This document shows positions 1 through 14,807 of a stretch of 64,000 nt of DNA, piece after piece. The notes beneath the pieces are model-generated. The model did not search any database and was not told the origin of the DNA. It was given only the letters and a program-made list of their open reading frames with translations. Numbering within the stretch: position 1 is the stretch's first letter; the number at the start of each line of letters is the position of its first letter. A program made the translations under genes and the position numbers. Origin of the DNA: Arthrobacter agilis (lineage in GTDB: Bacteria > Actinomycetota > Actinomycetes > Actinomycetales > Micrococcaceae); the NCBI RefSeq assembly GCF_002157505.1, contig NZ_NFSC01000031.1, positions 1 to 64,000 on the forward strand, written 5' to 3'.

Positions 1-136
1 CGCGACTGCTGCGGTTGTGTGTCTGGCTGCGGTGGTGGGTTTGTACGTGGCTGACCGGAAAACTACTCACGCTTCGTTCCATCACCCGCACGGCCGCCAC
101 GGCGAGCCGCTCGTCCCTTCGGAGGTCCCCGGATGA
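1..136 (+). CDS. MFS transporter, 3' end only (second copy)
   Basis: This is the last part of a major facilitator transporter and runs in from outside the window. The 44 or so visible residues are a final hydrophobic segment followed by a His-rich polar tail. They are identical to the C-terminus of the full-length aromatic-acid-type transporter at 3450-4748, because this stretch lies in the perfect direct repeat 1-932 = 4613-5544. The stop codon overlaps the start of the next gene (ATGA at 133-136), so the two should be translationally coupled as in the other copy. Whether the 5' part is intact cannot be seen. Confidence 0.85.
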   Translation, partial: ATAAVVCLAAVVGLYVADRKTTHASFHHPHGRHGEPLVPSEVPG

Positions 137-879
137 CACTGATACAGCACACCGCAGCTGAGCCCCAAGCCGTCCTGGTACCGGAACCGGAGGATAGCGT
201 GTTCGACTTCGACCGGCTGCTGGACCCGGCACCGATGGCCCTCGAGACCGGTTACCGCCGCCTTGACTCAGGCGTCCTGCACGTCGCCGCCCGGACCGAC
301 ATGCACGGATGCACCGGTGAGATGTTCAGCTGGTGGTTCGGAAGCCGGCCCGGGCCCCGCGAGTACGGCTGGTGGCATCCCATCGATCACGGTGCCAGCT
401 CCTGGGCCGGAGGCACTCCAGGCGAGGCTGTCGGCTCGACCCACATCGTCACCGAGAAACTCACCGGCCTGCCCGACCAGGACCTGCTGATCGAGTTCCA
501 TGACCCGACCGAGTTCTTCACCGCGTCCGCTTACTCGGCCGCAGGTGCAGGCGGCACCGTTTCCACGGCGATCACCGGGCACGTGGGTTTCGGCCACGAT
601 GCTCCACGGCGCAAGGACGGCTCGGTGCTGGGCGGGCGTCTGCTGCACATCGGACGGGACACCGAATGGGGGCTGGTCATGCGCAGCCACTTCCTGCTCG
701 GCTATGACTTGCCAGGAACTGGCCTCACTGCTCAAGAGGTCACCGCCGAAGTCGACGAGGCGCTGGGCCCCAACCTCCTTCAACACGCCTACGACGAGTT
801 CACGTTCCTCTCACGGATCCTGCCGCCACTGCATGCCGCGGAGAACCGGGACAGAATCACCATCCCCCGGCCCTGGTAG
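133..879 (+). CDS. DAPG hydrolase (PhlG)-like zinc hydrolase, copy 1
   Basis: A 248-residue soluble protein that resembles the 2,4-diacetylphloroglucinol hydrolase family, which cleaves a C-C bond to remove an acyl group from a phloroglucinol ring. Family-type features are an aromatic patch (MFSWWF, residues 64-69), WHPIDH at 81-86, EFHDP at 121-125, RSH at 184-186 and HAYDE at 218-222. The H-x3-E spacing in the last matches the metal-binding helix known in PhlG; the metal role here is inferred. The start is supported by GGAGG 8 nt upstream and by the ATGA overlap with the transporter. The sequence is identical to the gene at 4745-5491. The true substrate is unknown; another acyl-aromatic is possible. 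Confidence 0.7.
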   Translation: MTLIQHTAAEPQAVLVPEPEDSVFDFDRLLDPAPMALETGYRRLDSGVLHVAARTDMHGCTGEMFSWWFGSRPGPREYGWWHPIDHGASSWAGGTPGEAVGSTHIVTEKLTGLPDQDLLIEFHDPTEFFTASAYSAAGAGGTVSTAITGHVGFGHDAPRRKDGSVLGGRLLHIGRDTEWGLVMRSHFLLGYDLPGTGLTAQEVTAEVDEALGPNLLQHAYDEFTFLSRILPPLHAAENRDRITIPRPW

Positions 880-898
880 AAAACCACACAACCGCCAC

Positions 899-932
899 AA
901 GAAGCGGGACGGACTCAACCGAGTCCGTCCCG
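899..932. terminator. Truncated terminator hairpin at the repeat edge
   Basis: Left arm 899-916, loop AACC 917-920, and only 12 of the 18 right-arm bases (921-932) remain before the sequence diverges from the intact hairpin at 5511-5550. A 12-bp stem is still possible, but the T-rich 3' side is lost. Confidence 0.7.
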
Positions 933-1457
933 AAGTGAGGGCCCGAGACTGCGGCGAGGGCGGCCCCCGCCGCCGGCGACGGCCTCGGCGAACACCGGGA
1001 ACCCGATCTTCTCCGCCGCCGGCGATCAGCTCGTCCACATCGGCGCTCGGACGCGACGACTCCAACACCTGGATACCGGCCGCCCGCGCCGCGACCAACG
1101 CCTTGACCTTGTTCCCGGCCAGTTCCAGCACATCCGCCGGCGGCCCACGAACGTGATCCCCGCATCCGCGGCCGCCCGGGCCAGGCCCGGGTTCTCCGAC
1201 AGGAACCCGTACCCCGGGTAGATCGCATCACAGCCGGCGTCCTTGGCGACCCGGATGATCTCACCGATATCCAGGTACGCCCGCACCGGGTGCCCCTCCA
1301 CCCCGATCAGGTACGCCTCATCGGCCTTCTGCCGATGGATCGAATTGCGGTCCTCGTGCGGGAACACCGCAACCGTCTTCGCCCCCACCTCACACCCGGC
1401 CCGAAAAGCACGAATGGCGATCTCGCCACGATTAGCTACCAGAATCTTCGAAAACAT
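933..1457 (-). pseudogene. pyc: Pyruvate carboxylase N-terminal fragment, frameshifted
   Basis: Reading from 1457, the first ~105 residues are a clear biotin-carboxylase N-terminus of the actinobacterial pyruvate carboxylase type (MFSKILVANRGEIAIRAF, then YPGYGFLSENP). The frame breaks near 1140, where one C seems to be missing. Homology continues in a second frame (LELAGNKVKALVAARAAG) and breaks again near 1020, then resumes in a third frame (AEKIGFPVFAEAVAGGGGR). It can be followed to about 958 and perhaps to the repeat edge at 933. A full enzyme has over 1100 residues, so the ATP-grasp core, carboxyltransferase and biotin domains are all gone. A normal ribosome site (GAAGGA) remains before the start. 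It is a dead remnant left at a recombination junction. Confidence 0.85.
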
Positions 1458-1609
1458 CGGTGTCCTTCAAGAGTGATGGTGCGAACGTTCACCTCCCTGC
1501 TGATGGTGCCGGCAGGGAGGTGAACGGGGGAGGGGAGCGGCTGGAACGACAGCAGTGGGTGGGGCTTAGAGTGCGGCTGCGTCCAGTAGGGGTCCAACCA
1601 GGCTTGCTG

Positions 1610-3226
1610 CTAAGCGGTGGCGAGGTGTCGGGTGCGAAGCCCTGCGAGGAAGCCCAGGGCCAAATCCCTGGTGTGGGCGGCGGAGGCGGTTCCGTACAAG
1701 TGGAAATCCGGTCTGATCAGGACTGCGTCGACCGGGGCGGTGGGGGTGCCGAGGGAGTCAAACCATTGGTGGTAGGTTCCGTCGATGTCATCGATGATTT
1801 CCGTACCGCTGGAGACGTGGCTGTCCTCTTCAAAGCTGGCCAGGCGGATCCCGAGGAGACCTAAGCGCTTCTGGTCGTCCCTTGAGATGACCGCGAGCAT
1901 GGAGCTGCGTTTGGTGAGAAGAACGCCAGGGCCACCCAGTAGGTCATCCAATAGCATTGTGGTTTGCCTGGGTCCCGTGACGCGCCCCTGGATGGCGAGT
2001 TCACCGCCGTGCGGACCGGTGTGGAGACCGTGGCCAAGCCCGGGACGGGGAGGGGCCGGCGCTTTCCGGGTCGTTGCCCATTCAGCGATCATGCGCTCAT
2101 CTCGTGCCGCTGCATCGTTCGGGTCCGTGAGGCAGATGACCTGCCCAAGACTTACTGAGAATCTCACGAAGGCGATGGCATGCTGGGACCGCTCCGGTCC
2201 GTAGGTGTCCAGCAGGGAATCGTCGGCGAGGCCGTCGATGACCGCTGACAGTTTCCAGGCCAGATTCATAGCATCGCGGACACCGGCTCCGAGTCCCTGA
2301 CCGGCGAACGGGGGCATCAGGTGGGCCGCGTCGCCGGCAAGGAGAATCCGCCCCCGGCGCCACTCCGTGGCCCAGCACGCCTGGAAGGTGTACACCGAGT
2401 GCCGTTCGAGCTCCGCGTTTTCCGCAGTGACGCCGTAAGGGGCCAGCAGCTCCCACGCCTTTTCGGTGCGGTTCAGTTCTTCCCTTGTTTCCCCCGGCAG
2501 GCGCATGAACTCCCAGCGGCGCCGTCCGGGCCCGCCGGGGACCATCGTGGCCGGACGGGCGGTATCGCACAGCTGGTTGGCGACATGGGGGAAATTGAGG
2601 CCAGGCCCCGGTTTGACGTCGACGACGAGCCAGTCGTAGAAGAAGCCCTCGTCGTGCCATTCAATTCCGGCGTGCTGGCGCACGGCACTGTTGGCCCCGT
2701 CGGCACCGATGAGCCAACCGGACACGGCAGTGACCTGCTCACCGTCACTGGTTCTGCTGAGTTTGACGCGGATGCTGTCCTTGTCCTGGGATATGTCCCC
2801 GGCTTCCCAGCCCCGGAGAATAGTGACCGTGGGCAGTTCCTCGACCAGCGCATCAAGGCGGTCCTCCAGCGCCGGCTGGTTGAAGAAGTAGGTGTTGTAC
2901 CAGCCCGATTCCCCACGCCCGCTCCAGTCGACCTCGACAAGCGTCTGCCCCTGACCGTTCCGCCAGACATACATATCGTCATAAGGTTCAGTCGCCTCGG
3001 GAATGCTGTCGGGGGAGAGCCCGACGGACTGCAGGATGCGTGCAAAATCCGAGCAGTGTGTCACGGCGCGGGGAAGCGGGTAGCCGGTTTCCTTGCGGTC
3101 GACGACGAGCACCCGGTGCCCGCGGCGTCCGAGCTGGAGCGCGAGCAGCTTCCCCACGGGTCCGAACCCGACGATGGTCACGTCTGCGCTGTGTAAGCCA
3201 GGTCCACCGATGGTCTTCATTGACAT
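1610..3226 (-). CDS. FAD-dependent aromatic monooxygenase (MhpA/PheA-type)
   Basis: A flavoprotein hydroxylase of about 538 residues. It has the Rossmann FAD motif near the N-terminus (VGFGPVGKLLALQLGRRGH), the ADGANSAVR DG-motif in the middle and the GDAAHLMPPFAGQG motif that contacts FAD and NAD(P)H. This is the layout of class A phenol and hydroxyphenylpropionate hydroxylases, which add one oxygen to an aromatic ring. I chose the ATG at 3226 because it follows an AAAGG site; a GTG at 3271 is in frame but has no good site. It is divergent from the MFS transporter, with paired operators between them, so it most likely hydroxylates the ring compound that transporter imports. The substrate is not deducible. 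Confidence 0.85.
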   Translation of the reverse strand: MSMKTIGGPGLHSADVTIVGFGPVGKLLALQLGRRGHRVLVVDRKETGYPLPRAVTHCSDFARILQSVGLSPDSIPEATEPYDDMYVWRNGQGQTLVEVDWSGRGESGWYNTYFFNQPALEDRLDALVEELPTVTILRGWEAGDISQDKDSIRVKLSRTSDGEQVTAVSGWLIGADGANSAVRQHAGIEWHDEGFFYDWLVVDVKPGPGLNFPHVANQLCDTARPATMVPGGPGRRRWEFMRLPGETREELNRTEKAWELLAPYGVTAENAELERHSVYTFQACWATEWRRGRILLAGDAAHLMPPFAGQGLGAGVRDAMNLAWKLSAVIDGLADDSLLDTYGPERSQHAIAFVRFSVSLGQVICLTDPNDAAARDERMIAEWATTRKAPAPPRPGLGHGLHTGPHGGELAIQGRVTGPRQTTMLLDDLLGGPGVLLTKRSSMLAVISRDDQKRLGLLGIRLASFEEDSHVSSGTEIIDDIDGTYHQWFDSLGTPTAPVDAVLIRPDFHLYGTASAAHTRDLALGFLAGLRTRHLATA

Positions 3227-3303
3227 GCCTTTCAATTTCAAACCTCTACATCGAGGTATCACTGCATCCACCGTAGGGAGCAGAACGTGACTTGACTCAC
3301 ATG

Positions 3304-3393
3304 CTGTCCCGGTACGCGGGACAGTAGTTACTCCAGGTGATCACGTGTCCCGGATCTTGGGACAGGTGTGTTGTCCAGGTCACACTCTGTCCC
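3304..3393. promoter_or_regulatory. Phased operator array between monooxygenase and transporter
   Basis: Two inverted repeats of the form TGTCCC-N7-GGGACA lie at 3305-3323 and 3346-3364. The first extends to a perfect 8-bp arm pair (3304-3324). Their starts are 41 bp apart, close to four helical turns. A further TGTCCC half-site sits at 3388-3393, 42 bp on. Their place between divergent catabolic genes suggests the binding site of the nearby IclR protein (5527-6291), which is inference. Confidence 0.7.
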
Positions 3394-3449
3394 CACCATG
3401 GCAATGGAGAGCCGCCCAAGGAGGTGCGGCCCCACTTGGAGGAGCACGA

Positions 3450-4748
3450 ATGTTTACACCATCTGCTGCCGCTGCCGACGCCCCAAAGACGGGGAAGTCG
3501 AATTCGGGGATCATCGCGCTGTGCATGCTCATTACCGTGATCGAGGGCTACAACCTGATCGTGTTCGGGCAGGTTGTCCCGCTCATCCTCAGAGATCAGT
3601 CCATGGGCATCACGGACCAGGCAATCGGCCTGATCGGCGGCGTCGTCTACATCGGAGCGATCCTGGGCGCGCTGATCGCCCCGCTGCTGGGGGAGCGGCT
3701 CGGCCGTAAGGCTGTCCTGGCCGGAGCTGTCGCGGTATTCGCCGCAGCCGCCGCGCTTACCGGGCTCTCCCCGGACGGCCTCGTCATGGGTCTGGCCCGC
3801 TTCCTGGCCGGTCTTGGCGTGGGAGCGGCGCTGACAACAGCGATGACCGTGGCGCGGAACAACGCCCCCGCCCGGCGCGGATCCCTGGTCATCACCATCA
3901 CCATGGCCGGAATTCCGCTCGGCGGCGTCGTTGCGGCCCTCATTGCCGTTCCGGTACTGCCGGCCTTCGGATGGCGCCCGATGTTCTTCATCGGTACGGC
4001 CCTTACCGCTGCGATCCTGGTTGCCGTCCTTCTGACGAAGTTCCCGGTCACCACCGAGCCGGAAATCGCCGGCCGCACCTGGACAACCCGCCACAAGCTG
4101 GCAGCCGTCTTCTCGGGCCGCGGGGCAGTGGTGGCGCTGATCATCGCAGCATGTGCTGTCGCGAACATGGTCGCCTGGCAGGGCATGAACGTATGGGTCG
4201 TCGAAGCGATGATCGGCCTTGGGCTGAACCTGCAGGTCGCTTTGCTGTTCAGTTTCATCCTCACCGGTGCCGCAGTGATCGGCTCTTTCATTACCGCCTG
4301 GATCGCAGACCGCTGGGGAGCTTCCCTCGCGGCCGTCCTCACCGGAGCATGCACCCTTGTGGGGTTGGTGGGCATCCTGGCCTTGCCCTTCTCGGCGCCG
4401 CTGGCCATAACCTGCATCGCGCTCATGGGTATCGGTGGGCACTCGACGATGAACCTCGTGCACACTGCAACCTCTGACATCTATCCGCTTCCGGCCCGGG
4501 CAACGGCCCTGGGCTGGTCAAACGGCACCTCCTTTATTGGTGCCTTCCTCGGCCCGACCCTGGGCGGGGCCGCGATCGCCACCGGTGGATCACCTAGTGT
4601 CTTTGGCACCTTCGCGACTGCTGCGGTTGTGTGTCTGGCTGCGGTGGTGGGTTTGTACGTGGCTGACCGGAAAACTACTCACGCTTCGTTCCATCACCCG
4701 CACGGCCGCCACGGCGAGCCGCTCGTCCCTTCGGAGGTCCCCGGATGA
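3450..4748 (+). CDS. MFS transporter, aromatic acid:H+ symporter type
   Basis: A 432-residue integral membrane protein with about 12 hydrophobic segments. It resembles the aromatic acid:H+ symporter family (PcaK, BenK, MhpT), including the short charged loop after the second helix (GERLGRKAV) and the early EGYNLIVFG segment where that family usually has a Glu/Asp in helix 1. The start at 3450 follows GGAGG; a longer frame from 3345 runs through the operators and is unlikely to be translated. The last codons overlap the PhlG-like gene by ATGA. It probably imports the aromatic substrate used by the neighbouring monooxygenase and hydrolase. Confidence 0.85.
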   Translation: MFTPSAAAADAPKTGKSNSGIIALCMLITVIEGYNLIVFGQVVPLILRDQSMGITDQAIGLIGGVVYIGAILGALIAPLLGERLGRKAVLAGAVAVFAAAAALTGLSPDGLVMGLARFLAGLGVGAALTTAMTVARNNAPARRGSLVITITMAGIPLGGVVAALIAVPVLPAFGWRPMFFIGTALTAAILVAVLLTKFPVTTEPEIAGRTWTTRHKLAAVFSGRGAVVALIIAACAVANMVAWQGMNVWVVEAMIGLGLNLQVALLFSFILTGAAVIGSFITAWIADRWGASLAAVLTGACTLVGLVGILALPFSAPLAITCIALMGIGGHSTMNLVHTATSDIYPLPARATALGWSNGTSFIGAFLGPTLGGAAIATGGSPSVFGTFATAAVVCLAAVVGLYVADRKTTHASFHHPHGRHGEPLVPSEVPG

Positions 4749-5544
4749 CACTGATACAGCACACCGCAGCTGAGCCCCAAGCCGTCCTGGTACCGGAACC
4801 GGAGGATAGCGTGTTCGACTTCGACCGGCTGCTGGACCCGGCACCGATGGCCCTCGAGACCGGTTACCGCCGCCTTGACTCAGGCGTCCTGCACGTCGCC
4901 GCCCGGACCGACATGCACGGATGCACCGGTGAGATGTTCAGCTGGTGGTTCGGAAGCCGGCCCGGGCCCCGCGAGTACGGCTGGTGGCATCCCATCGATC
5001 ACGGTGCCAGCTCCTGGGCCGGAGGCACTCCAGGCGAGGCTGTCGGCTCGACCCACATCGTCACCGAGAAACTCACCGGCCTGCCCGACCAGGACCTGCT
5101 GATCGAGTTCCATGACCCGACCGAGTTCTTCACCGCGTCCGCTTACTCGGCCGCAGGTGCAGGCGGCACCGTTTCCACGGCGATCACCGGGCACGTGGGT
5201 TTCGGCCACGATGCTCCACGGCGCAAGGACGGCTCGGTGCTGGGCGGGCGTCTGCTGCACATCGGACGGGACACCGAATGGGGGCTGGTCATGCGCAGCC
5301 ACTTCCTGCTCGGCTATGACTTGCCAGGAACTGGCCTCACTGCTCAAGAGGTCACCGCCGAAGTCGACGAGGCGCTGGGCCCCAACCTCCTTCAACACGC
5401 CTACGACGAGTTCACGTTCCTCTCACGGATCCTGCCGCCACTGCATGCCGCGGAGAACCGGGACAGAATCACCATCCCCCGGCCCTGGTAGAAAACCACA
5501 CAACCGCCACAAGAAGCGGGACGGACTCAACCGAGTCCGTCCCG
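4613..5544. repeat. Perfect 932-bp direct repeat, copy 2
   Basis: Second copy of the repeat at 1-932. Here it is embedded in what looks like the original setting: the transporter is full length and the hairpin at the right edge is complete. Confidence 0.95.
4745..5491 (+). CDS. DAPG hydrolase (PhlG)-like zinc hydrolase, copy 2
   Basis: Identical to the 248-residue protein at 133-879, with the same WHPIDH, EFHDP, RSH and H-x3-E signatures. It is co-transcribed and translationally coupled (ATGA) with the complete MFS transporter upstream and ends just before an 18-bp terminator hairpin. PhlG-family enzymes remove an acetyl group from an acylphloroglucinol by C-C bond hydrolysis. With an importer and an aromatic hydroxylase beside it, a role in degrading an acyl-phenol is likely. 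Having two identical copies may raise dosage. Confidence 0.72.
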   Translation: MTLIQHTAAEPQAVLVPEPEDSVFDFDRLLDPAPMALETGYRRLDSGVLHVAARTDMHGCTGEMFSWWFGSRPGPREYGWWHPIDHGASSWAGGTPGEAVGSTHIVTEKLTGLPDQDLLIEFHDPTEFFTASAYSAAGAGGTVSTAITGHVGFGHDAPRRKDGSVLGGRLLHIGRDTEWGLVMRSHFLLGYDLPGTGLTAQEVTAEVDEALGPNLLQHAYDEFTFLSRILPPLHAAENRDRITIPRPW

Positions 5545-5550
5545 CTTCTT
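5511..5550. terminator. Bidirectional 18-bp terminator hairpin
   Basis: Perfect arms 5511-5528 and 5533-5550 with loop AACC. It lies between the convergent PhlG-like gene and the IclR gene. The last codons of the IclR gene, up to its stop at 5527, are part of the hairpin. The flanks give a short T-rich tail on the plus strand (CTTCTT). Confidence 0.85.
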
Positions 5551-6291
5551 CAGTTCCAGATGTTTCCTCGCACCCGACAGGTCGATGACGGGGTTGAGCT
5601 CCTTCAAGCCCTCCAAAGCTGCTGTGCTCTTGGCGCCGAAGCGGCTTGTCGGCATGACAACAGCAATGGCCTGCAGTGCACCGGTGGGACCGATCATTGC
5701 TGTGGCGAGGGCGCAGATGCCCACATTATGTTCTTCAATGTCCACGGCCACGCCGACGTGTCGAATGAGGTCGACTTCGTCCTGAAGCTGCACCCTGTTG
5801 GTGATGGTGCTGTCCGTGAACCGTTCGAGCTCCTGGGGGAGAAGGTTTTCGGCCCGGGTTGCCGGAAGCGCCGCCAGCAGGGCCTTGCCGATGCAGCTGG
5901 CATGCAGGGAAAAACTTCTGCCGACCTTGGTGACACCCTTCAGCCGCTCAGGGGAGGCGACCTGATCGACGATGACGACTTCGCGGCCACTGAAGATGGC
6001 CAGTTCAGCGTTTTCGTTCGTGGCCCGTGCCAGGGAAACAAGCTGTCCTCGATTGGCGCTGAGCAGGTGGAGATGTCCGGCCATGCCGAATTTCAGCACG
6101 CCCGGACCCAGAGCGTAGCCGGGCCGGCCCGGCGCGCGCACCACGTAAAGCTCTTCCTCCAGAGCCTGAATGGTCCGGTGCACGGAGGAACGGGGAAGGC
6201 CTGTGCGGGTAGCAAGTTCGGACAGGCTAAGAGGCCCTCGGCTTTCAGCGAGGGCGTCCAGGACCAGGCTGACGCGGGAGAGAGTTGTCAC
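5527..6291 (-). CDS. IclR family transcriptional regulator
   Basis: A 254-residue regulator with an N-terminal winged helix-turn-helix (about residues 5-65, including LSELATRTGLPRSSVHRTIQ) and the C-terminal IclR effector domain (SLHASCIGKALLA; the late segment AIAVVMPTSRF). IclR proteins often control aromatic catabolism from a gene beside the target operon, so this is the best candidate for the TGTCCC-N7-GGGACA sites at 3304-3393. Its C-terminal KKRDGLG is encoded by the terminator hairpin shared with the convergent hydrolase gene. The gene lies 29 nt after the SnoaL-like gene on the same strand. Confidence 0.88.
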   Translation of the reverse strand: MTTLSRVSLVLDALAESRGPLSLSELATRTGLPRSSVHRTIQALEEELYVVRAPGRPGYALGPGVLKFGMAGHLHLLSANRGQLVSLARATNENAELAIFSGREVVIVDQVASPERLKGVTKVGRSFSLHASCIGKALLAALPATRAENLLPQELERFTDSTITNRVQLQDEVDLIRHVGVAVDIEEHNVGICALATAMIGPTGALQAIAVVMPTSRFGAKSTAALEGLKELNPVIDLSGARKHLELKKRDGLG

Positions 6292-6320
6292 GGCTTCATC
6301 ACCGGAGGATCAAGTGCCAC

Positions 6321-6722
6321 TCAGGTTCCGGCCGTCCAGATACGGCTGACTTTCAACTGCATCAAGGACCAATCCACGCCGTCCACCAGTAGCTCATATT
6401 GGCCGAGCGTGTGCACCAACGGGGCATCGCCGCCCAAAAGCCATCGGGTGTAGTGGGCAGTGGCAAGCCACTGCCCTTCCTCCTGGGCGGGGTTCACGAT
6501 CAGGTTGCTGACGTCGTGCCGGTGCTCTTCGGGGCTACTCCATAACTGCGTGAACAGCTGCCGCGCCCCCGCGGGATCCATGGACCCGGCAGTGGGGAAG
6601 TGGACCTGAGTGCTTCCCAGCAAGTCGACAACGGCGTCGACGTCCTTGCGGTCTGCGATGGCCACGTACGTGTGCAGGAGATTCGCGATCTGATGTCTGG
6701 CCTCAGCGGCGTGGATGCTCAT
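6321..6722 (-). CDS. SnoaL-like / NTF2-fold protein
   Basis: A 133-residue protein of the SnoaL-like polyketide cyclase/NTF2 superfamily. The pattern is an N-terminal helix (IANLLHTYVAIADRKDVDAVVDLL), a RHDVSNLIV strand and a C-terminal strand ending KVSRIW. Family members are small enzymes, isomerases or dioxygenase beta-subunit-like partners. The ATG at 6722 overlaps the stop of the DUF3500 gene (ATGA), which implies coupled translation and possibly equal amounts of the two proteins. No catalytic residues can be assigned. Confidence 0.75.
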   Translation of the reverse strand: MSIHAAEARHQIANLLHTYVAIADRKDVDAVVDLLGSTQVHFPTAGSMDPAGARQLFTQLWSSPEEHRHDVSNLIVNPAQEEGQWLATAHYTRWLLGGDAPLVHTLGQYELLVDGVDWSLMQLKVSRIWTAGT

Positions 6723-7978
6723 CGCGCCCGTTCCGAATGTGCTGCCTGCCATTGGCGGACCCAGGACCGGCCGTAGTCGTTACCATGCGGGGTCCGCAGA
6801 ACGGTGTGGACATGGAACTGTTTGGGCGTGCGGTAGTCGAGGAAGACCCCGCAGTGATGATCCAGTTCGGCGATGACAACGGGGGACTGAATTCGGTAGT
6901 AGAAGACATCACCGGGGTCGTGTCCGCCGATCCAGGAGAACCAGGTCTCGTCCAGGTGTTCCCGGACCTCGCGCATCCGCGCTGCGCGGGGGCCCTCCGG
7001 CAATGGAAGTACGAATTGTTCGACGATGGAGAGGGCGATCTGCTGCGCCGTGGCTGGCATGTCCGCCACACGGATCCCTTCGAAGGGGATGATCCGGTTG
7101 TCCTGGAACGCGCCGGCGAGGTGCCGTTCGTCTCCGGGATGCACCCGGCCCTCCGGCATGGCCGGATCGACCATTCGCTGGTAGATCGTCGCGGTGGCTT
7201 GTTGCCCGGCGGGCAGGGCGGCCATGAGGTCGATGCCGAGCTTGATGCGGTCTTTGAAGGCAGCAGTGCCGACGTGGGGGCCCTCGTCGATCTCGTTGGG
7301 TTCGGCTCCGAAAAAGACCGGGCTGAGGGACATGCGTCCTTCGACGACCAGGCAGTTGACTGCGCAGTGGTGCCCGTACAGCTGCCATCCCCATGGAGCG
7401 GTCTGATGCGGGGTCCCGTAGAGGGCGAAGTTGTAGCTGAACTCGTTCAGGACGCTTTCGAGTCGCACGACCTCTCCAAGGAAACCGTTGATCAGCATCA
7501 TGCCGTGTGCGAGTTGATATCCCTCCGGGCTTAGTGATGCTCTCATGAGCGCCAGCGCCTTCTCGCGGACCTCCCGGGGCTGGAACTCAAGCCTGAGGCC
7601 GGTATCGAACTGCATGAATTCGGGATTGGCCCAGGTCTGCCACTCCACGGCGTCCACCGGGTAAGTAAGCTTCTCCCGGTCCTCGGCGGAAACGGTGGCC
7701 AACAGAGCTTCGGCTGCCTCGACCATGGCGGCAAGCGGAGCTTCCTCGCCCGGCACCGCCGGCGCGAAAGGGTAGAGACCTTCGCGCAGGGCGCCGTCTT
7801 CCGTGACTCCACGGAATTCATTGAGGTAGAGAGGCGTCCAGCCCTTGATCAGATCACCGGTGAAGGTTCCCTCCTGCCGGGCGGCCTGGCGGTAGGCGTA
7901 CGCGTCGAGGCCCTTCACGTCTTCAATACGGGGATGGCCTTCTGGGAAGAGGTACTGGCGAAATTCTGCTGTGCTCAT
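6719..7978 (-). CDS. DUF3500 family protein
   Basis: A 419-residue soluble protein matching the DUF3500 family, whose biochemical function I do not know. Visible family-like features are WGWQLYGHHCAVNCLV in the middle, FFGAEPNEID just after, and AELDHHCGVFL with FHVHTVLRTPHGNDYG near the C-terminus. These His-rich stretches would suit a metal site. The start at 7978 follows GAAGGAG. It heads an operon with the coupled SnoaL-like gene and the IclR gene, next to a GntR regulator and a FAH-family enzyme. The context points to a catabolic enzyme acting on an aromatic or ring-derived intermediate. Confidence 0.78.
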   Translation of the reverse strand: MSTAEFRQYLFPEGHPRIEDVKGLDAYAYRQAARQEGTFTGDLIKGWTPLYLNEFRGVTEDGALREGLYPFAPAVPGEEAPLAAMVEAAEALLATVSAEDREKLTYPVDAVEWQTWANPEFMQFDTGLRLEFQPREVREKALALMRASLSPEGYQLAHGMMLINGFLGEVVRLESVLNEFSYNFALYGTPHQTAPWGWQLYGHHCAVNCLVVEGRMSLSPVFFGAEPNEIDEGPHVGTAAFKDRIKLGIDLMAALPAGQQATATIYQRMVDPAMPEGRVHPGDERHLAGAFQDNRIIPFEGIRVADMPATAQQIALSIVEQFVLPLPEGPRAARMREVREHLDETWFSWIGGHDPGDVFYYRIQSPVVIAELDHHCGVFLDYRTPKQFHVHTVLRTPHGNDYGRSWVRQWQAAHSERAR

Positions 7979-8009
7979 GGGCGCACTCCTTCGTGCTCGG
8001 ATGATCGGG

Positions 8010-8759
8010 TCAGAGGTTGTGGTTGGTGACGGCCTGCCCGACAGCGGTGATGTCGCCGCTGGCGATAGCTTCGACAAGCTCGACGTGGACACGCAGGCGG
8101 TCAGTCCTGTAGGCCGCGGCCGCGGCTTCGTCCTCATCGAAGCGTGATGAAGCCGACGACGACAGATGCCCGAGCGTGCCGACGTACACCGCCCGGGCCA
8201 TCACGTTCGGGCAAATCGCGGCGATCCTCTCGTGCAGCGCCCAGTTCGCCCGCATGAATCCGTCCCAGTCCCTGGAAGACTCCAAATTGCCTACGAGAAG
8301 ACGCAGCTCGGAAACGTCGTCGTCAGTGCGGCATCGGGCAGCCCCGACGTCAATGAGCTCCTCGAGGTGATCCCGCAACTCAATGGCATCGATGACGGCA
8401 GAGGGCTGGTCCCCGACGGTCAGGAGCGTGTGGCGCAAGCGGACGACAGGGCTGGTTTCGGCGACGAAAAGCCCGCCGGTACGACCTGGACGGATCTCCA
8501 AAACCCCTCGCTCCCGCAGGAGCCGGACCGCCTCGCTCACCGTCGCCCGGGCATAACCAGTCTCTTCACGGAGCGAGGGCAGGGTCCCCACGAGGGCGCC
8601 GGGCTCAAGGCCCTGGGTGCGAATCCGCTCCTCCAGCGCAGCAGCGAGATGCTCAGCCCGCGAACGCGGGGCGGCCAGCTTCAGCCCCGCGGTGGCAGCA
8701 ATGCCTGCTGTCCCGGGATGCTGAACGGCGGGCTGTACGGCACCGGAGATCTGTGTCAT
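8010..8759 (-). CDS. GntR/FadR-type transcriptional regulator
   Basis: A regulator of about 249 residues with an N-terminal GntR winged helix (LPSLREETGYARATVSEAVRLLRERGVL, then the wing GRTGGLFV) and a C-terminal helical FCD ligand domain (IELRDHLEELIDVGAAR, NWALHERI). FCD regulators commonly bind organic acids. It is divergent from the FAH-family gene, with 77 bp between them, and upstream of the DUF3500 operon, so it probably controls one or both. The ATG at 8759 has AGGAG only 1 nt away; a TTG at 8777 is in frame. The start is therefore uncertain. Confidence 0.85.
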   Translation of the reverse strand: MTQISGAVQPAVQHPGTAGIAATAGLKLAAPRSRAEHLAAALEERIRTQGLEPGALVGTLPSLREETGYARATVSEAVRLLRERGVLEIRPGRTGGLFVAETSPVVRLRHTLLTVGDQPSAVIDAIELRDHLEELIDVGAARCRTDDDVSELRLLVGNLESSRDWDGFMRANWALHERIAAICPNVMARAVYVGTLGHLSSSASSRFDEDEAAAAAYRTDRLRVHVELVEAIASGDITAVGQAVTNHNL

Positions 8760-8836
8760 GCTCCTATTCAAGCACAAAAGGTGCGAATGTTTTAGCTCCT
8801 TTCGACACTGGCTGTCGGAGCGTGAAGGGAAGACCT

Positions 8837-9715
8837 ATGAGAATTGTTGGTATCCGTCGCGGTGCTGGACCTGTAGAGGTTGCTGCGCTGTCCGACGACG
8901 GACAAACCGTCTCGGTGCTGGCAGGGCTGGAGCAGTTCTGGACTGCCCCGACCGAGCACCTCGCATCAGAGGCATCCGGGGAAACCCTGCCGGCTGCCGC
9001 AGTGGAGTTCGTCCCGCCGGTTCTGCCCGGCGCCCGGGTGATCTGCATCGGCCTGAACTACCTCAAGCACGTTGCCGAGGGCTCCTTCAAGGACCAGGAA
9101 CTTGCCGAATACCCGACCCTTTTCGCGCGCTGGACGCAGTCCCTCACCGTGGATGGAGCTGCGGTACCTGTCCCGTCCGGGGAAGCCGGTCTGGACTGGG
9201 AAGGAGAGATCGTCGCCTGGGTCGGTGAAACCCTCGTTGACGCCACCCCGGAGAAAGCGCTCGACGCCGTCATCGGTTACTCCGTCTTCAACGACCTCAC
9301 CGCCCGGCGCGCCCAAAAACTCACCTCTCAGTGGATCCTGGGTAAGAACGCGGACCTCTCCGGTCCGGTCGGACCCATGGTCCCCGCCAGCGAGGTTGGC
9401 GACCTGCGCGCCGGCCTGCAGGTCCAAACCCGTGTGAACGGTGAGACCGTGCAGGACGGGAACACCACCGAGATGGTCTACACCGTAGGTGAGACCCTGG
9501 CACACATCTCCAGGACCTTCACCCTTCGCCCCGGTGACCTGCTCGCGACGGGAACCCCATCCGGCGTGGGCTACGCCCGCACACCCCAGTGGCTCCTGCA
9601 GCCCGGCGACGTCGTCGAAGTCGAGGTCGAGAAAATCGGCACGCTGCGTAACTCCATCGTCGGCAACGAAGCCCGCCACCGCGCTGTCCGCGAAGTTCAG
9701 GATGCACTGCGGTGA
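8837..9715 (+). CDS. Fumarylacetoacetate hydrolase family protein
   Basis: A 292-residue member of the FAH superfamily: hydrolases, decarboxylases or isomerases that act on beta-keto acids produced in aromatic ring cleavage. The conserved core is visible: ICIGLNYLKHVAE at about residue 75, FARWTQSL, the metal-ligand region DWEGEIVAWVG, and GKNADLSGPVGP, ending with LLATGTPSGVGYAR. The start at 8837 follows GAAGGGA. Its stop overlaps a GTG that begins a truncated CoA-transferase. In this setting it could hydrolyse a ring-fission product of the pathway, but the substrate is not visible. Confidence 0.88.
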   Translation: MRIVGIRRGAGPVEVAALSDDGQTVSVLAGLEQFWTAPTEHLASEASGETLPAAAVEFVPPVLPGARVICIGLNYLKHVAEGSFKDQELAEYPTLFARWTQSLTVDGAAVPVPSGEAGLDWEGEIVAWVGETLVDATPEKALDAVIGYSVFNDLTARRAQKLTSQWILGKNADLSGPVGPMVPASEVGDLRAGLQVQTRVNGETVQDGNTTEMVYTVGETLAHISRTFTLRPGDLLATGTPSGVGYARTPQWLLQPGDVVEVEVEKIGTLRNSIVGNEARHRAVREVQDALR

Positions 9716-9801
9716 CTGCTGAACTTCCCCTGGCAGGTGTTACCGTCCTTGACCTGAGCCGGGCACTTTCAGGGCCGTACTGCAGCGCTCTGCTGGGTTA
9801 G
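9712..9801 (+). pseudogene. CaiB/BaiF CoA-transferase remnant
   Basis: A GTG overlapping the FAH stop (GTGA) opens a 29-residue frame that reads GVTVLDLSRALSGPYCSALLG, the N-terminus of a class III (CaiB/BaiF) CoA-transferase, and then stops with TAG. A normal protein has about 400 residues. In 9855-9940 the frame GDAAQHSEEV resembles the usual C-terminal end of the family, so most of the gene may have been deleted. It probably once followed the FAH gene in an operon. Confidence 0.7.
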
Positions 9802-9938
9802 ATAGGCAGGAGCCGCTGCAAGGGCGCCGAGGGTTGTACGCGGCCACCGATCCCGAAGGGCGGCGACGCCGCCCAGCACTCGGAAGAGGTAACCGCGGAC
9901 GTCACACCAGGTGGGGAGGCGCCCGCGGTTGACCTGCC

Positions 9939-11372
9939 CTAGTAGCTGATCGCTTGCGGAGCTCCGAGGTGCTTGAGGCCTTCGACACCGAACTCGAGAC
10001 CGTACCCGGACGCTTTCATTCCTCCGAAAGGTATGCGGGGATCGACGGTGCCGTGCTTGTTGATCCAGACGGTGCCGGCCTCGATGCGGGCTGCGACCTT
10101 CAGGGCGGATTCAACGTCGGATGACCAGACGGAGGCGCCGAGGCCGACATCGAGTGCGTTCGCCATGGTGATGGCTTCATCAACGGTCGAGTACTTGATG
10201 ATCGGCAGCGCCGGTCCGAACTGCTCCTCAGTCACCAGCGGATTGTCATTGTCGATATCGGCTACGAGGGTGGCCGGGTAGAAGTAGCCGGGCTGGTCCT
10301 TCTCCGGGTTCCCACCGAGCAGCACCCTTGCCCCAGAATTGCGGGCGGACTCGACGAGACCGGCGACGATGTCGTACTGGGACTTGTTCTGCAGCGGACC
10401 GAGAACGTTGTTCTCATCCAGGCCCACACCCATGGGCATTGATGCGGCAACTTTGGTGAGTTCTTCGCAGACCGCGTCGTAGATGTCCTCGTGGACGTAG
10501 AGGCGCTTGAGGGCTGCGCAGGTCTGGCCGGTGTTGATGAACGCGCCCCAGAACAGGTTTTCAGCGATCTCCTTTGGGTTGGCGTCGGGCAGGACGATGC
10601 CGGCGTCATTGCCGCCGAGTTCGAGGGTCAGCCTCTTCACGGTGTCCGCGGATGAGCGGATGATGTCCTGGCCTGCAGCGGTGGATCCGGTGAACATGAT
10701 CTTGGCGATGTCCGGGTGACTCACCAGTACAGCGCCGACGTCACGTCGACCCGATATGACGTGCAGAACATCGGCGGGCAGTACGGAGTTGAGGACATGT
10801 GCCAGAGCCAGCACGGACAGGGGCGTGTTCCCTGAAGGTTTGACGACGACGGTGTTGCCCATGCGAAGGGCAGGGGCGATCTGCCAGACCGAGATCATCA
10901 TGGGCCAGTTCCACGGCCCGATCGCGCCGACGACGCCGAGGGGTCGGTAGTGCAGTTCCGCGTGGCCCCCGTCATCGTCGACGAGAACCTCTGGTTTCAT
11001 CTCGAATGAGGCCGTAGCCCGTAACCAGGCTGCGCAGGCTCCGACCTCGAAGCGTGCATTCGGCCCGTTCAAGGGTTTGCCTTGCTCACGGGACAGAAGC
11101 TGCGCCAGGGCTTCAGCGGAAGCCTCGACCGCGTCGGCTGCCTCGTTGAGATAGGCAGACCGCTCGTCGTGGGACAGATCGCCCCAGGCCGGCTGGGCCG
11201 CGCGGGCCTTCGTGATCGCGGCATCGAGATCGGTCGTGTCGTGCTCCGGCGCGCGGCCAACGATCGCTCCGGTGGCAGGGTCCTTGATGTCCGGGCCGCC
11301 TTCAGCTGGCTCGATTGCTGCCAGGAGTGCTTCGAAGCTGGTCGGTGCGGTTGTATCTGTTGAGACTGTCAT
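9939..11372 (-). CDS. NAD(P)-dependent aldehyde dehydrogenase
   Basis: A 477-residue enzyme of the aldehyde dehydrogenase superfamily, which oxidises aldehydes to acids. Visible signatures are GPWNWPM with its catalytic Asn, the general-base Glu in LELGGNDAG, and the nucleophilic Cys in GQTCAALKR, and the C-terminal KASGYG region. AGGAGGT precedes the start. It is the last gene of the minus-strand set permease-cupin-amine oxidase-ALDH, with 112 bp to the oxidase. It most likely oxidises the aldehyde released by that oxidase. Confidence 0.9.
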   Translation of the reverse strand: MTVSTDTTAPTSFEALLAAIEPAEGGPDIKDPATGAIVGRAPEHDTTDLDAAITKARAAQPAWGDLSHDERSAYLNEAADAVEASAEALAQLLSREQGKPLNGPNARFEVGACAAWLRATASFEMKPEVLVDDDGGHAELHYRPLGVVGAIGPWNWPMMISVWQIAPALRMGNTVVVKPSGNTPLSVLALAHVLNSVLPADVLHVISGRRDVGAVLVSHPDIAKIMFTGSTAAGQDIIRSSADTVKRLTLELGGNDAGIVLPDANPKEIAENLFWGAFINTGQTCAALKRLYVHEDIYDAVCEELTKVAASMPMGVGLDENNVLGPLQNKSQYDIVAGLVESARNSGARVLLGGNPEKDQPGYFYPATLVADIDNDNPLVTEEQFGPALPIIKYSTVDEAITMANALDVGLGASVWSSDVESALKVAARIEAGTVWINKHGTVDPRIPFGGMKASGYGLEFGVEGLKHLGAPQAISY

Positions 11373-11484
11373 AACGGTTTTACCTCCTGTTAAAGGTGCT
11401 GTAGTCGAAGTGCGGCCAGCGGTCGGGATTCCAGCGTTCCGCCGCTGCGTTCGACGCTGAGGTGCTGCGGTTGAGAGCCCCGTG

Positions 11485-12804
11485 CTAGACGGTCAGGGCG
11501 TCGATGGATTGGGTGTGCTCGAGTTCCTGCCCGATGGTGCGGGCGGCGTCCAGACCGCTTTCAATTGCCCCATCGATGAATCCGCCCCAGCCATTGGCGA
11601 AGTCGGATCCTGCCAGGCGGATTCGACCTTCGGGTCGCTGCAGTTCTGCGAGGGAGTGAGTGAGGTAGCCGGTGTAGTGCATCGGCCAGGTGGAGCGGGA
11701 ATGTTCGTCGCCGACCCAGTCATGTCCAGCGACTTCAAGAACTTCCAGACCCGGTACCAGCGTGTCCAGGATGCGCTGGGCAGCTGCGGGGTCGTCGACG
11801 TCGACGGCGGCGGCGTCGGGTCCGAAGCAGACGAGTGTGGTCGAGTCATCGTCGATGTACTCCGCCTGGATGAAGTTCAGGGCAGCATTTTCGGGGCCCA
11901 TGGCGACGAAGCGTTCCTGGCGTCCTTTGACCTTGATCCATAGTTTGGCGCCTCGTCCGGCCTGTCCGCGGGTGGCGGCTTCGCGTTTGCCCGGCGAGAG
12001 TTCGGGCTGAATGTCGAGGTCGTTCAGTGTGCTCAGCGGCAGGGCGAGAACGAGTTGCTGGGCGGCGTAGTGTGAGCCGTCGGCGGTCGTGACCGTGACA
12101 CCAGCGTCGTCTTGCTGAATGGCCGCAACTACCTGATTCAACCGGAGGTCTGCCGTCGAGTCGGCCAGGATCGCTTCGGCGAGGCGGAGGGTCCCTCCTT
12201 CGATCTTGAAGGAGGCGCAGGCTTCGAACATGGTCAACCAGGAACCGGACGCGACGGCGCACCAGCGAAGGGCCTGCGTGTACGCGGCTTCGTCGAGTGT
12301 GCCGTTGAAGTTCAGCGTCCAGAAGGACCGCAGCAACTGCCGCTGCTCCTCAGGCAGGTCCAGCCGATCAATAGCGTCCGACAGCGTGATGTGGTCGATG
12401 TCGGACACTTCTGGGTTGGCCAAGGGCGACCACGGCAGGGGGAAGTACCGTCGCGCGTCGGCCAGAAGCGCCTGGTTGGGCTCGTCAAGAAGCCCCAGCA
12501 AGGTGTCAGGATGCCCCTCATGGTGTTGCCCGTCGGCAGTCCAGTAGGCCTTGGTGAAGTCCGGTCCTGCAATGGGTGCGATCCCGTAGCGGCCCATCTC
12601 GGCCCAGACGTACGGCTGTGTCCAGTGGACCCAGGTGCCACCGAGTTCGAGATTGCGCCCGAGCTGGTTGTCGAGGAAGGTGCGGCCGGCGATCCGGTCG
12701 CGTGCTTCGAGGATGATGGTTTTGTGTCCGCGACGGGTGAGTTCGCGGGCAGCGGTGAGGCCGGCGAAGCCTGCACCGACGACGATAACGTCAGTAGTTT
12801 CCAT
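11485..12804 (-). CDS. Flavin monoamine oxidase family protein
   Basis: A 439-residue FAD amine oxidase. It begins with the Rossmann FAD motif (VVGAGFAGLTAARELTRRGH, then EARDRIAGRT) and ends with the FAD-contact motif LAGSDFANGWGGFIDGAIESG, as in putrescine and monoamine oxidases of actinobacteria. These deaminate an amine to an aldehyde with release of ammonia and hydrogen peroxide. The start at 12804 has GGAG upstream. The gene sits 12 bp after the cupin gene and before the aldehyde dehydrogenase, so the amine substrate is probably taken up by the APC permease in the same operon. Confidence 0.9.
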   Translation of the reverse strand: METTDVIVVGAGFAGLTAARELTRRGHKTIILEARDRIAGRTFLDNQLGRNLELGGTWVHWTQPYVWAEMGRYGIAPIAGPDFTKAYWTADGQHHEGHPDTLLGLLDEPNQALLADARRYFPLPWSPLANPEVSDIDHITLSDAIDRLDLPEEQRQLLRSFWTLNFNGTLDEAAYTQALRWCAVASGSWLTMFEACASFKIEGGTLRLAEAILADSTADLRLNQVVAAIQQDDAGVTVTTADGSHYAAQQLVLALPLSTLNDLDIQPELSPGKREAATRGQAGRGAKLWIKVKGRQERFVAMGPENAALNFIQAEYIDDDSTTLVCFGPDAAAVDVDDPAAAQRILDTLVPGLEVLEVAGHDWVGDEHSRSTWPMHYTGYLTHSLAELQRPEGRIRLAGSDFANGWGGFIDGAIESGLDAARTIGQELEHTQSIDALTV

Positions 12805-12816
12805 GACGTGCTCCTA

Positions 12817-13149
12817 CTAGCTGTAGACGAAGAATTCGATGGTGGGCTCCAGTACCGTCCACCGCGTGTTCGCACCTTTGGAGAGTGAGGCCATCGCGCT
12901 GGCTGGCATGTCGAGGGTGTCTCCGCCCTGGATTTCGATGCGGAGGTGTCCTGAGACGATGTAGATGGTCTCGTCTTCCTCGATGGGCAGGTCGAACGGT
13001 TCCGGAGCTTCCTGTGGTGTGACCTTCCAGATACCGGCCGAGAGGGCTTCGTTTCCGTTGTCACCTGGGCGGCGGAGCCACTGGACCATGCCCAGCTCGA
13101 AAGGTTCGAACGCGTTCTCGTCGTGGTGGGCGTGGAATACCTGAGACAT
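12817..13149 (-). CDS. Small cupin domain protein
   Basis: A 110-residue single-domain cupin (about residues 35-105; PIEEDETIYIVSGHLRIEIQGGD is the conserved first cupin motif). It resembles the EutQ/(S)-ureidoglycine-type cupins often found in amine and ureide catabolic operons. It lies between the permease and the amine oxidase genes. Whether it is an enzyme or a sensor cannot be told from the sequence. Confidence 0.8.
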   Translation of the reverse strand: MSQVFHAHHDENAFEPFELGMVQWLRRPGDNGNEALSAGIWKVTPQEAPEPFDLPIEEDETIYIVSGHLRIEIQGGDTLDMPASAMASLSKGANTRWTVLEPTIEFFVYS

Positions 13150-13190
13150 GTATATGTCCTACTTTCGTTGGGGGGATGAGTCCTGGATGT

Positions 13191-14660
13191 TCAGCTCGTG
13201 AGAGCTGCTGGACGCTGCTCGACTGATTCGTCTGGTTCGCGCAGGAGGGGGAGCCGGTCCTGGAATCGTCGGCGGATGACGAACAAGACCAAGGAGAGAA
13301 GGAGGATGCCGACGCCTATCGCCAGTTCCACGGGACCGCCGTAGCCGGAAAGGTGCGAGGAGGATGCACCGATGACCAGCACTGCAGCCCCATAGACGGT
13401 CAGGATGATGGCCAGTGGCACAGACCATGCACCGAGCTTGAAGCTGCGGGACGCATCGGGACGGTCCTTCCGCAGAAGCAGGAATCCCGAGACGGCCAGG
13501 AGGATGGCGAGCAGGTAACCGATGTTGGCGGCCACCAGGATGGAGATGGGGTTGGAGACGAAGATGACCAGGAGCACGTTCATGACCACGGCGACGATGA
13601 TGGCGCGTGCAGGAACCTGATTTCGGTTGAGGACCTCGAGCTGGCGGGGGACCAGCCCGTCCACGGCCGCTCCGTACAAGGCTCGAGAGCCGTCCGCCAT
13701 GCTGGCATTCACTCCCATCAGGAGCGCTCCGATGGTGATCAGAAGTGCAATGTCCCCGGCGAAACCGGCGGGAAGGACGGAGGCGAACCCGGTGACAAAC
13801 ACAGCACTGGGATCAGTAGCAGCGTCTGCCTGGGACACAAGACCGCCCACACCGAGGGGGACAAGGGCGAACATCATGAAGGTGTAGCCACCGGAGCTGG
13901 AAAGCGCCCGGCGTGCGTCCCTGTTGCTACGGTATTCGGGGGTGAAAGCGGCGCACATCTCGGTCCCGTAGGCAGTCCAACCGATGAGGTAGAGCCACAC
14001 AGCGGCGTCCTGCCATCCTCCCCAATGGTCCGCCCCTGGCTGCCCCAAACCCCATGTCAGGTTGCTCAGTTCCCACTGGCCGCTCACCAGGGGAGCGACG
14101 ACGAAGGTCAGGAGCGGAATGAGGAGCAGGGCACCGAAGACCTTGTTCACCCATGCCGCGGGTTGCGCACCGATGAGGTTGGGCACCATGAGCGCGAGGA
14201 TGAAGCCGATTCCAATGAGTTGTGCCGGACCTATCTGGGCAACTCCGAGATCGAGAGCCCATGCAGCCTCGGGAAGCCAGCGTGCCTGCACGATCGCCCC
14301 AGCCGTCAGGCTCACCACGGAGATCACGGCCGACCATCCGAACCAGTAGCCAAACGTCGCCAGCGCTCCGGCCGGCGCGAAACGGCTCTTCCACGCTTCA
14401 TGCGCATAGACCGGCACCCCGCCTGGCTTGTCAGGAAACATGGACGCCATCTCGGCGAAAAGGTGATTCTGAACCCAGCCGATCCCTGCGGCCAGGGCCC
14501 AGACGAACAACGCAGACAAGGCGCCGATGGCAGCCATCGTCGCGCCGAAGGACACGAAGAGACCGCCCGAGACCGCCATTGCCAGCGCGAAGGCATCCTG
14601 CCATCGCAAGGTTCGGTGAAGGGTGGGTGAGCTGTCTGCGGTTTGGTGCGAACCAGCCAT
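13191..14660 (-). CDS. APC family amino acid/amine permease
   Basis: A 489-residue membrane protein with about 12 hydrophobic segments. It starts with the APC pattern (LRWQDAFALAMAVSGG in helix 1) and has the FPDKPGGVPVYAHEAW stretch typical of the superfamily. The ATG at 14660 follows GAAAGG; a longer frame to 14741 has no such site. It is the first gene of the minus-strand operon with cupin, amine oxidase and aldehyde dehydrogenase, and is divergent from a TetR regulator. It probably imports the amine that the operon degrades. Confidence 0.88.
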   Translation of the reverse strand: MAGSHQTADSSPTLHRTLRWQDAFALAMAVSGGLFVSFGATMAAIGALSALFVWALAAGIGWVQNHLFAEMASMFPDKPGGVPVYAHEAWKSRFAPAGALATFGYWFGWSAVISVVSLTAGAIVQARWLPEAAWALDLGVAQIGPAQLIGIGFILALMVPNLIGAQPAAWVNKVFGALLLIPLLTFVVAPLVSGQWELSNLTWGLGQPGADHWGGWQDAAVWLYLIGWTAYGTEMCAAFTPEYRSNRDARRALSSSGGYTFMMFALVPLGVGGLVSQADAATDPSAVFVTGFASVLPAGFAGDIALLITIGALLMGVNASMADGSRALYGAAVDGLVPRQLEVLNRNQVPARAIIVAVVMNVLLVIFVSNPISILVAANIGYLLAILLAVSGFLLLRKDRPDASRSFKLGAWSVPLAIILTVYGAAVLVIGASSSHLSGYGGPVELAIGVGILLLSLVLFVIRRRFQDRLPLLREPDESVEQRPAALTS

Positions 14661-14807
14661 GGTTACGCCTTTCGGTTGCTTCAGTGGAACCGTGAGTACA
14701 GGGGTACCGGTGGGGGAGTGTGACCGGATGCACTCGATCACACGTCAAACTATGCAGGTGCTTAGTTATTTGTGTCAAGGCTTACAGATGCTGACTAGAC
14801 TCGGCGT

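Follow-up and report, generated by a model that had tools for sequence, protein, structure and literature searches.

The 64,000-nucleotide stretch analysed here (the window) opens contig NZ_NFSC01000031.1 (C25) of the soil actinobacterium Arthrobacter agilis, in a draft assembly of 31 contigs and 3.88 Mb. Between positions 1610 and 9715 it contains a gene cluster that we read, with moderate confidence, as a bacterial 1,2,3,5-tetrahydroxybenzene (THB) pathway whose first steps take in acylated phloroglucinols. The genes follow the order FAD monooxygenase (minus strand), major facilitator superfamily (MFS) importer (plus), PhlG-like hydrolase (plus), IclR-family regulator (minus), SnoaL_4 protein (minus), DUF3500 protein (minus), GntR/FCD regulator (minus) and FAH-family enzyme (plus), with 4-base overlaps between the importer and PhlG genes and between the DUF3500 and SnoaL genes. 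All of these had been named in the original prediction for this DNA, and profile matches recovered every one. That prediction took them for an aromatic catabolic set comprising import, PhlG-type cleavage, ring hydroxylation and FAH-type cleavage; conserved neighbourhoods in other genomes and a common promoter palindrome bear this out, and a dedicated, conserved catabolic cluster is thus well supported.

The neighbourhoods were compared in at least 80 loci, all with actinobacterial titles, obtained by scanning species genomes with DUF3500 profiles (patterns from close relatives). Three of the 80 had no called DUF3500 gene, leaving 77 that were scored by gene calls. An FAH gene lies within 3 kb of DUF3500 in 71 of these 77 loci, which had been fetched by DUF3500 alone, and 51 have an FAD monooxygenase, belonging to one of two groups, no more than 7 kb away. 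A direct translated search found FAH in 75 of the 80. An independent sample of whole genomes of relatives served as a control. It held seven closer DUF3500 genes (at least 43% identity; L126–L132, the window's own gene and a copy on contig C16 being left out and L127 being cut by a contig end) and 19 distant ones (22–31% identity; all examined, one of them, L157, a fragment). FAH and monooxygenase each occur within 7 kb of DUF3500 in five of the seven closer genes, against none of the 19 distant ones (Fisher's p 0.0003, a guide only, since the genomes are related). Recurrence in relatives, together with the distant-group control, rules out a chance gathering of genes. By its own terms the original prediction would have failed had these neighbours met only in unrelated contexts elsewhere; in the other genomes they recur together. 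By gene calls, seven of the 80 loci have the full subtype seen in the window, with SnoaL and with importer and monooxygenase of the window type; they range from Arthrobacter to Amycolatopsis, Nocardioides, Streptomyces, Gordonia and Thermocatellispora, and no other ring-cleavage gene was seen among the genes of window-type clusters. Front ends elsewhere among the 80 loci include esterases (33), GH1 glycosidase (17) and cupins (18 and 8). Beyond Actinobacteria, the same kinds of genes are found in annotated records of Alphaproteobacteria and Betaproteobacteria; a Thioclava record brings together DUF3500, FAH, hydratase, aldolase, monooxygenase, NTF2-like and dienelactone hydrolase genes, and a Paraburkholderia record shows FAH-DUF3500-FAH plus a Rieske protein.

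The palindrome, TGTCCC-N7-GGGACA (19 bp), is found as two exact copies at 3305–3323 and 3346–3364, in the gap from which the monooxygenase and importer genes diverge, and these are the only exact sites in the whole genome. When one mismatch was allowed in eight chosen related loci, each of the 11 sites found preceded a monooxygenase or importer gene. If up to two mismatches are tolerated, the window by itself holds no more matches than chance would give, so the case for the palindrome rests on its exactness, placing and recurrence. We propose that the IclR-family protein (5527–6291, minus; profile match) binds the two copies as operators, by which it would regulate the monooxygenase and the importer–PhlG pair. 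The GntR/FCD protein (8010–8777, minus; profile match) stands beside FAH and DUF3500 in relatives, is assigned to the ring-cleavage half and would regulate these two genes. For both regulators the targets are predicted ones. A conserved GntR operator was not found: palindromes recur inside subgroups (8 of 40 intergenic stretches each), neither across the set nor in the window.

From the observed genes, synteny, conserved residues and palindromes we infer the following substrates and reactions. The importer would bring in the substrate, the PhlG-like zinc-type hydrolase would remove its acyl group to leave phloroglucinol, and the FAD monooxygenase would hydroxylate phloroglucinol to THB. DUF3500, with O2, would then open THB between two adjacent hydroxyls to 2,4-dihydroxymuconate, which is equivalent to 2,4-dioxoadipate and, minus water, to the hydroxydienelactone reported for fungi; by our own derivation, intradiol opening of THB would give 2,4-dioxoadipate as an acylpyruvate with hydroxydienelactone as its lactone. 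SnoaL may assist tautomerisation or lactone opening, and FAH, acting as an acylpyruvate hydrolase, would split 2,4-dioxoadipate into pyruvate and malonate. The atom balance of this scheme holds (C6H6O4 + O2 = C6H6O6, which with H2O gives pyruvate and malonate). The monooxygenase (1610–3217, minus; FAD_binding_3), the proposed phloroglucinol hydroxylase, scores over the cut-off of the MhpA-like subfamily NF004829, and the importer (3450–4748, plus) has as its top NCBIfam match the aromatic acid/H+ symporter family, under its cut-off.

The ring-opening step would fall to the DUF3500 protein (6719–7978, minus; 419 residues), which matches PF12006 with 359.1 bits and, in our analysis, is probably the THB ring-cleaving enzyme of this cluster. 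Residues H203, H204, E371, H389 and H391 may form a metal site. In the fungal literature, a review reports the proposal that the DUF3500 protein AN10530 of Aspergillus nidulans turns THB into 5-hydroxydienelactone, A. niger is described as still growing on gallate after the removal of 17 putative ring-cleavage genes, and a 2026 paper presents the THB pathway as apparently restricted to fungi, naming as ring opening a DUF that is printed as DUF3550 with IPR021889 (PMC12388069, PMC13094099). Within positions 1–13,149 of the window, where not every small open reading frame was scanned, no ring-cleavage dioxygenase gene was seen, and an ordinary MhpA-type meta-cleavage pathway was set aside on that account.

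Downstream of ring opening, the FAH-family enzyme (8828–9715, plus), a putative acylpyruvate (2,4-dioxoadipate) hydrolase, has its best fits among 2,4-diketo-acid and HpaG-type enzymes. It aligns with the L-2,4-diketo-3-deoxyrhamnonate hydrolase 8gsr, an enzyme that cleaves a 2,4-diketo acid, and keeps the HxxE and E/E/D positions; residues E84, E125 and E127 are invariant and H81 and D156 nearly so. Among the 80 loci, a full pyruvate carboxylase gene occurs in two (L075, where it adjoins FAH, and L109) and a fused carboxyltransferase in 12, mostly accompanied by a CoA-transferase; the window itself holds a pyruvate carboxylase fragment. On contig C19 of the same genome (L125, 6982–12039), matC is followed by a CoA-transferase III and a fused AccD/AccA-like carboxyltransferase, faced by a divergent GntR/FCD gene; matA and matB are not in view there, and the set is a possible malonate operon. 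Judging from matC, a malonate carrier, the CoA-transferase/carboxyltransferase pair would handle malonate, and these neighbours, together with pyruvate carboxylase, fit with pyruvate and malonate as products. The SnoaL_4 protein (6321–6722, minus; 133 residues; profile match) may take the part that the short fungal protein reportedly plays on hydroxydienelactone. From its SnoaL_4 match and NTF2-like model it is better read as a helper, in an isomerase or lactone step, than as a ring-cleaving enzyme. The coupled DUF3500–SnoaL pair of the original prediction holds for the window and some loci, and fails as a fixed pair, SnoaL genes or pieces (full length or fragments) being found in 11 of the 80. 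At the other end of the scheme, the PhlG-like protein (4745–5491, plus) scores 115.6 bits with PF18089, against a gathering score of 22.7, and its H86, E108, H218 and E222 align with the H/E/H/E positions of PhlG and phloretin hydrolase, which in PhlG are zinc ligands.

Several observations weigh against this scheme. The PhlG-like protein falls under the cut-off of the 2,4-diacetylphloroglucinol (DAPG) hydrolase equivalog NF047887 (40 versus 600 bits), and FAH under that of the diketo-rhamnonate hydrolase equivalog NF053535 (148 versus 500 bits). Full-length PhlG is present in only two of the 80 loci (L035 and L112), with remnants or fragments in L035 and L037, and PhlG-type and DUF3500 genes co-occur in two of 394 genomes from the class, one being this genome and the other having them on separate contigs. 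These counts rule out PhlG as an obligatory part of the cluster; it is peripheral, and the acylphloroglucinol substrate end is weaker than the core. FAH was not seen by direct translated search in five of the 80 loci (L065, L087, L090, L110 and L106, the last of these a short contig), the palindrome was not found in L086 at one-mismatch stringency, and the carboxyltransferase/CoA-transferase pair lies outside the window cluster, elsewhere in the genome. As for ring opening, the link to AN10530 is by DUF3500 family name, and the only convincing structural relative found for DUF3500, 9x86 (ApmL/Amc20), is titled a dehydratase, which means that use of O2 is not a given for the family.

This last match suits a reading in which DUF3500 is (de)hydratase-like and acts alongside or subsequent to ring opening, with the opening itself achieved by a second, Baeyer–Villiger-type turn of the FAD monooxygenase or by autoxidation of THB to a quinone followed by hydrolysis. 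We regard this as unlikely, although it is the most serious alternative: the proposed role of the fungal DUF3500 protein is ring cleavage, distant DUF3500 groups stand without FAH/monooxygenase context, and ApmL, which shares 26% identity with the window protein across the aligned part, has a function that rests on the title of its entry, no paper having been found in a literature search on 9x86. No dioxygenase fold was found among the structural matches of DUF3500, though such a fold could be present and still match weakly or not at all. Ring cleavage, for which the original prediction had considered DUF3500, SnoaL or a route without that step, is attributed to DUF3500 in agreement with the fungal work, while the dehydratase title of the fold match leaves this role unproven; SnoaL is the less likely candidate.

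The cluster could also be a similarly laid-out aromatic pathway with another substrate, such as a hydroxylated resorcinol, hydroxyquinol or a phenylpropanoid, PhlG being a local add-on. The MhpA-like subfamily of the monooxygenase and the replacement of PhlG by esterase, GH1, cupin or Rieske genes in other loci would agree with this, but the resemblance of FAH to a 2,4-diketo-acid hydrolase, the malonate- and pyruvate-handling neighbours, which suit the THB product, and the PhlG-type gene itself, which suits phloroglucinols, make it improbable. A role mainly as a detoxification island against acylphloroglucinol antibiotics, for example DAPG of pseudomonads, is hardly credible, since the conserved PhlG-free core of FAH, DUF3500 and monooxygenase makes sense only for degradation and the transporter best matches an importer and not an efflux family, even though the PhlG-type gene is duplicated and tied to a transporter gene.

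The duplication belongs to the assembly setting of the locus, which the original prediction had passed over together with the degraded gene fragment described below. The window begins at the contig end, and an exact 932-base repeat (1–932 and 4613–5544) includes the whole PhlG gene, giving a first copy at 133–879 (plus; PF18089, 115.6 bits) that is identical to the second. Contig C10 ends in a complete MFS gene followed by 127 bases that are identical to positions 1–127 of the window. From this identity and the exact repeat, the first PhlG copy is part of a partial duplication, the placing of which depends on the assembly, and the working cluster is therefore best taken as 1610–9715. The repeat copy at 1–932 is followed by a degraded N-terminal fragment of a pyruvate carboxylase gene (961–1457, minus), 92% identical to a copy on contig C21. 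The starts given for several genes, including the monooxygenase, importer and FAH genes, are putative ones, inner start codons picked by comparison with relatives. The closest protein matches carry the names Pseudarthrobacter, Paenarthrobacter and Arthrobacter.

A second DUF3500 cluster is present on contig C16 of the same genome (L116, 2285–10506), with three alpha/beta hydrolases, FAH, a monooxygenase of another type and a DUF3500 protein (57%); contig C10 carries a distant DUF3500 gene. Genes without a Pfam match stand beside or inside DUF3500 clusters at L119 8006–8860 and L086 12482–13282, and are possible partner enzymes. On the 3′ side of the window cluster, positions 9939–14741 hold an aldehyde dehydrogenase gene (scanned) and flavin amine-oxidase-like, cupin-like and permease-like genes (judged by eye), perhaps an amine pathway.

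Phloroglucinol rings occur in flavonoids, phlorotannins, the acylphloroglucinols of hop and myrtle, and DAPG, and the genes for their aerobic degradation in bacteria are, to our knowledge, poorly defined. Among the papers that a search on this degradation turned up, anaerobic or rumen work predominates, as far as titles and the beginnings of abstracts tell. The newness suggested in the original prediction has to be qualified, a fungal counterpart being known; the THB pathway has so far been stated to be confined to fungi. More tentatively, DUF3500 could stand for a structurally novel class of oxygenases that cleave aromatic rings in fungi and bacteria alike, with THB central in both kingdoms, bacterial end products pyruvate and malonate, and exchangeable front modules (PhlG, esterases, glycosidases) through which phloroglucinol-type compounds of plants and microbes would reach central metabolism. 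If true, a widespread protein of unknown function would be given a reaction, a pathway so far ascribed to fungi alone would extend across kingdoms, and a cloneable bacterial gene set would make the DUF3500 mode of ring opening directly testable.

Among known systems, Rhodococcus qingshengii RL1 (D6M20_RS19290–19320) resembles the window in having hydroxylase, MFS, HTH, DUF3500 and FCD genes under neighbouring tags, with two hypothetical genes between them; they are given there as unassigned strain-specific genes (PMC8416521). ApmL/Amc20 shares the fold and the GHH/HxH motifs of the window DUF3500 protein, but belongs to antibiotic biosynthesis, is shorter and lacks the catabolic neighbours considered here. 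PhlG (3hwp) and phloretin hydrolase (5xe5, 5xey) share PF18089 and the four metal-ligand positions with the window protein, which is shorter (248 residues) and far under the equivalog cut-off, whereas 8gsr, with the FAH fold and catalytic positions in common, serves a sugar-acid pathway. The fungal THB pathway is the nearest counterpart, with a DUF3500 protein as the proposed ring opener. The fungal cluster of Martins et al. (2024) reportedly also contains a monooxygenase, an FAH-like gene and a short protein, and the window likewise unites an FAD monooxygenase and an FAH-like enzyme in one cluster. In contrast to the fungal pathway, the window cluster is bacterial, includes a PhlG-type deacylase and an importer, is accompanied by IclR and GntR regulators, and has SnoaL in the place where the fungal cluster is said to have a short protein without a known domain.

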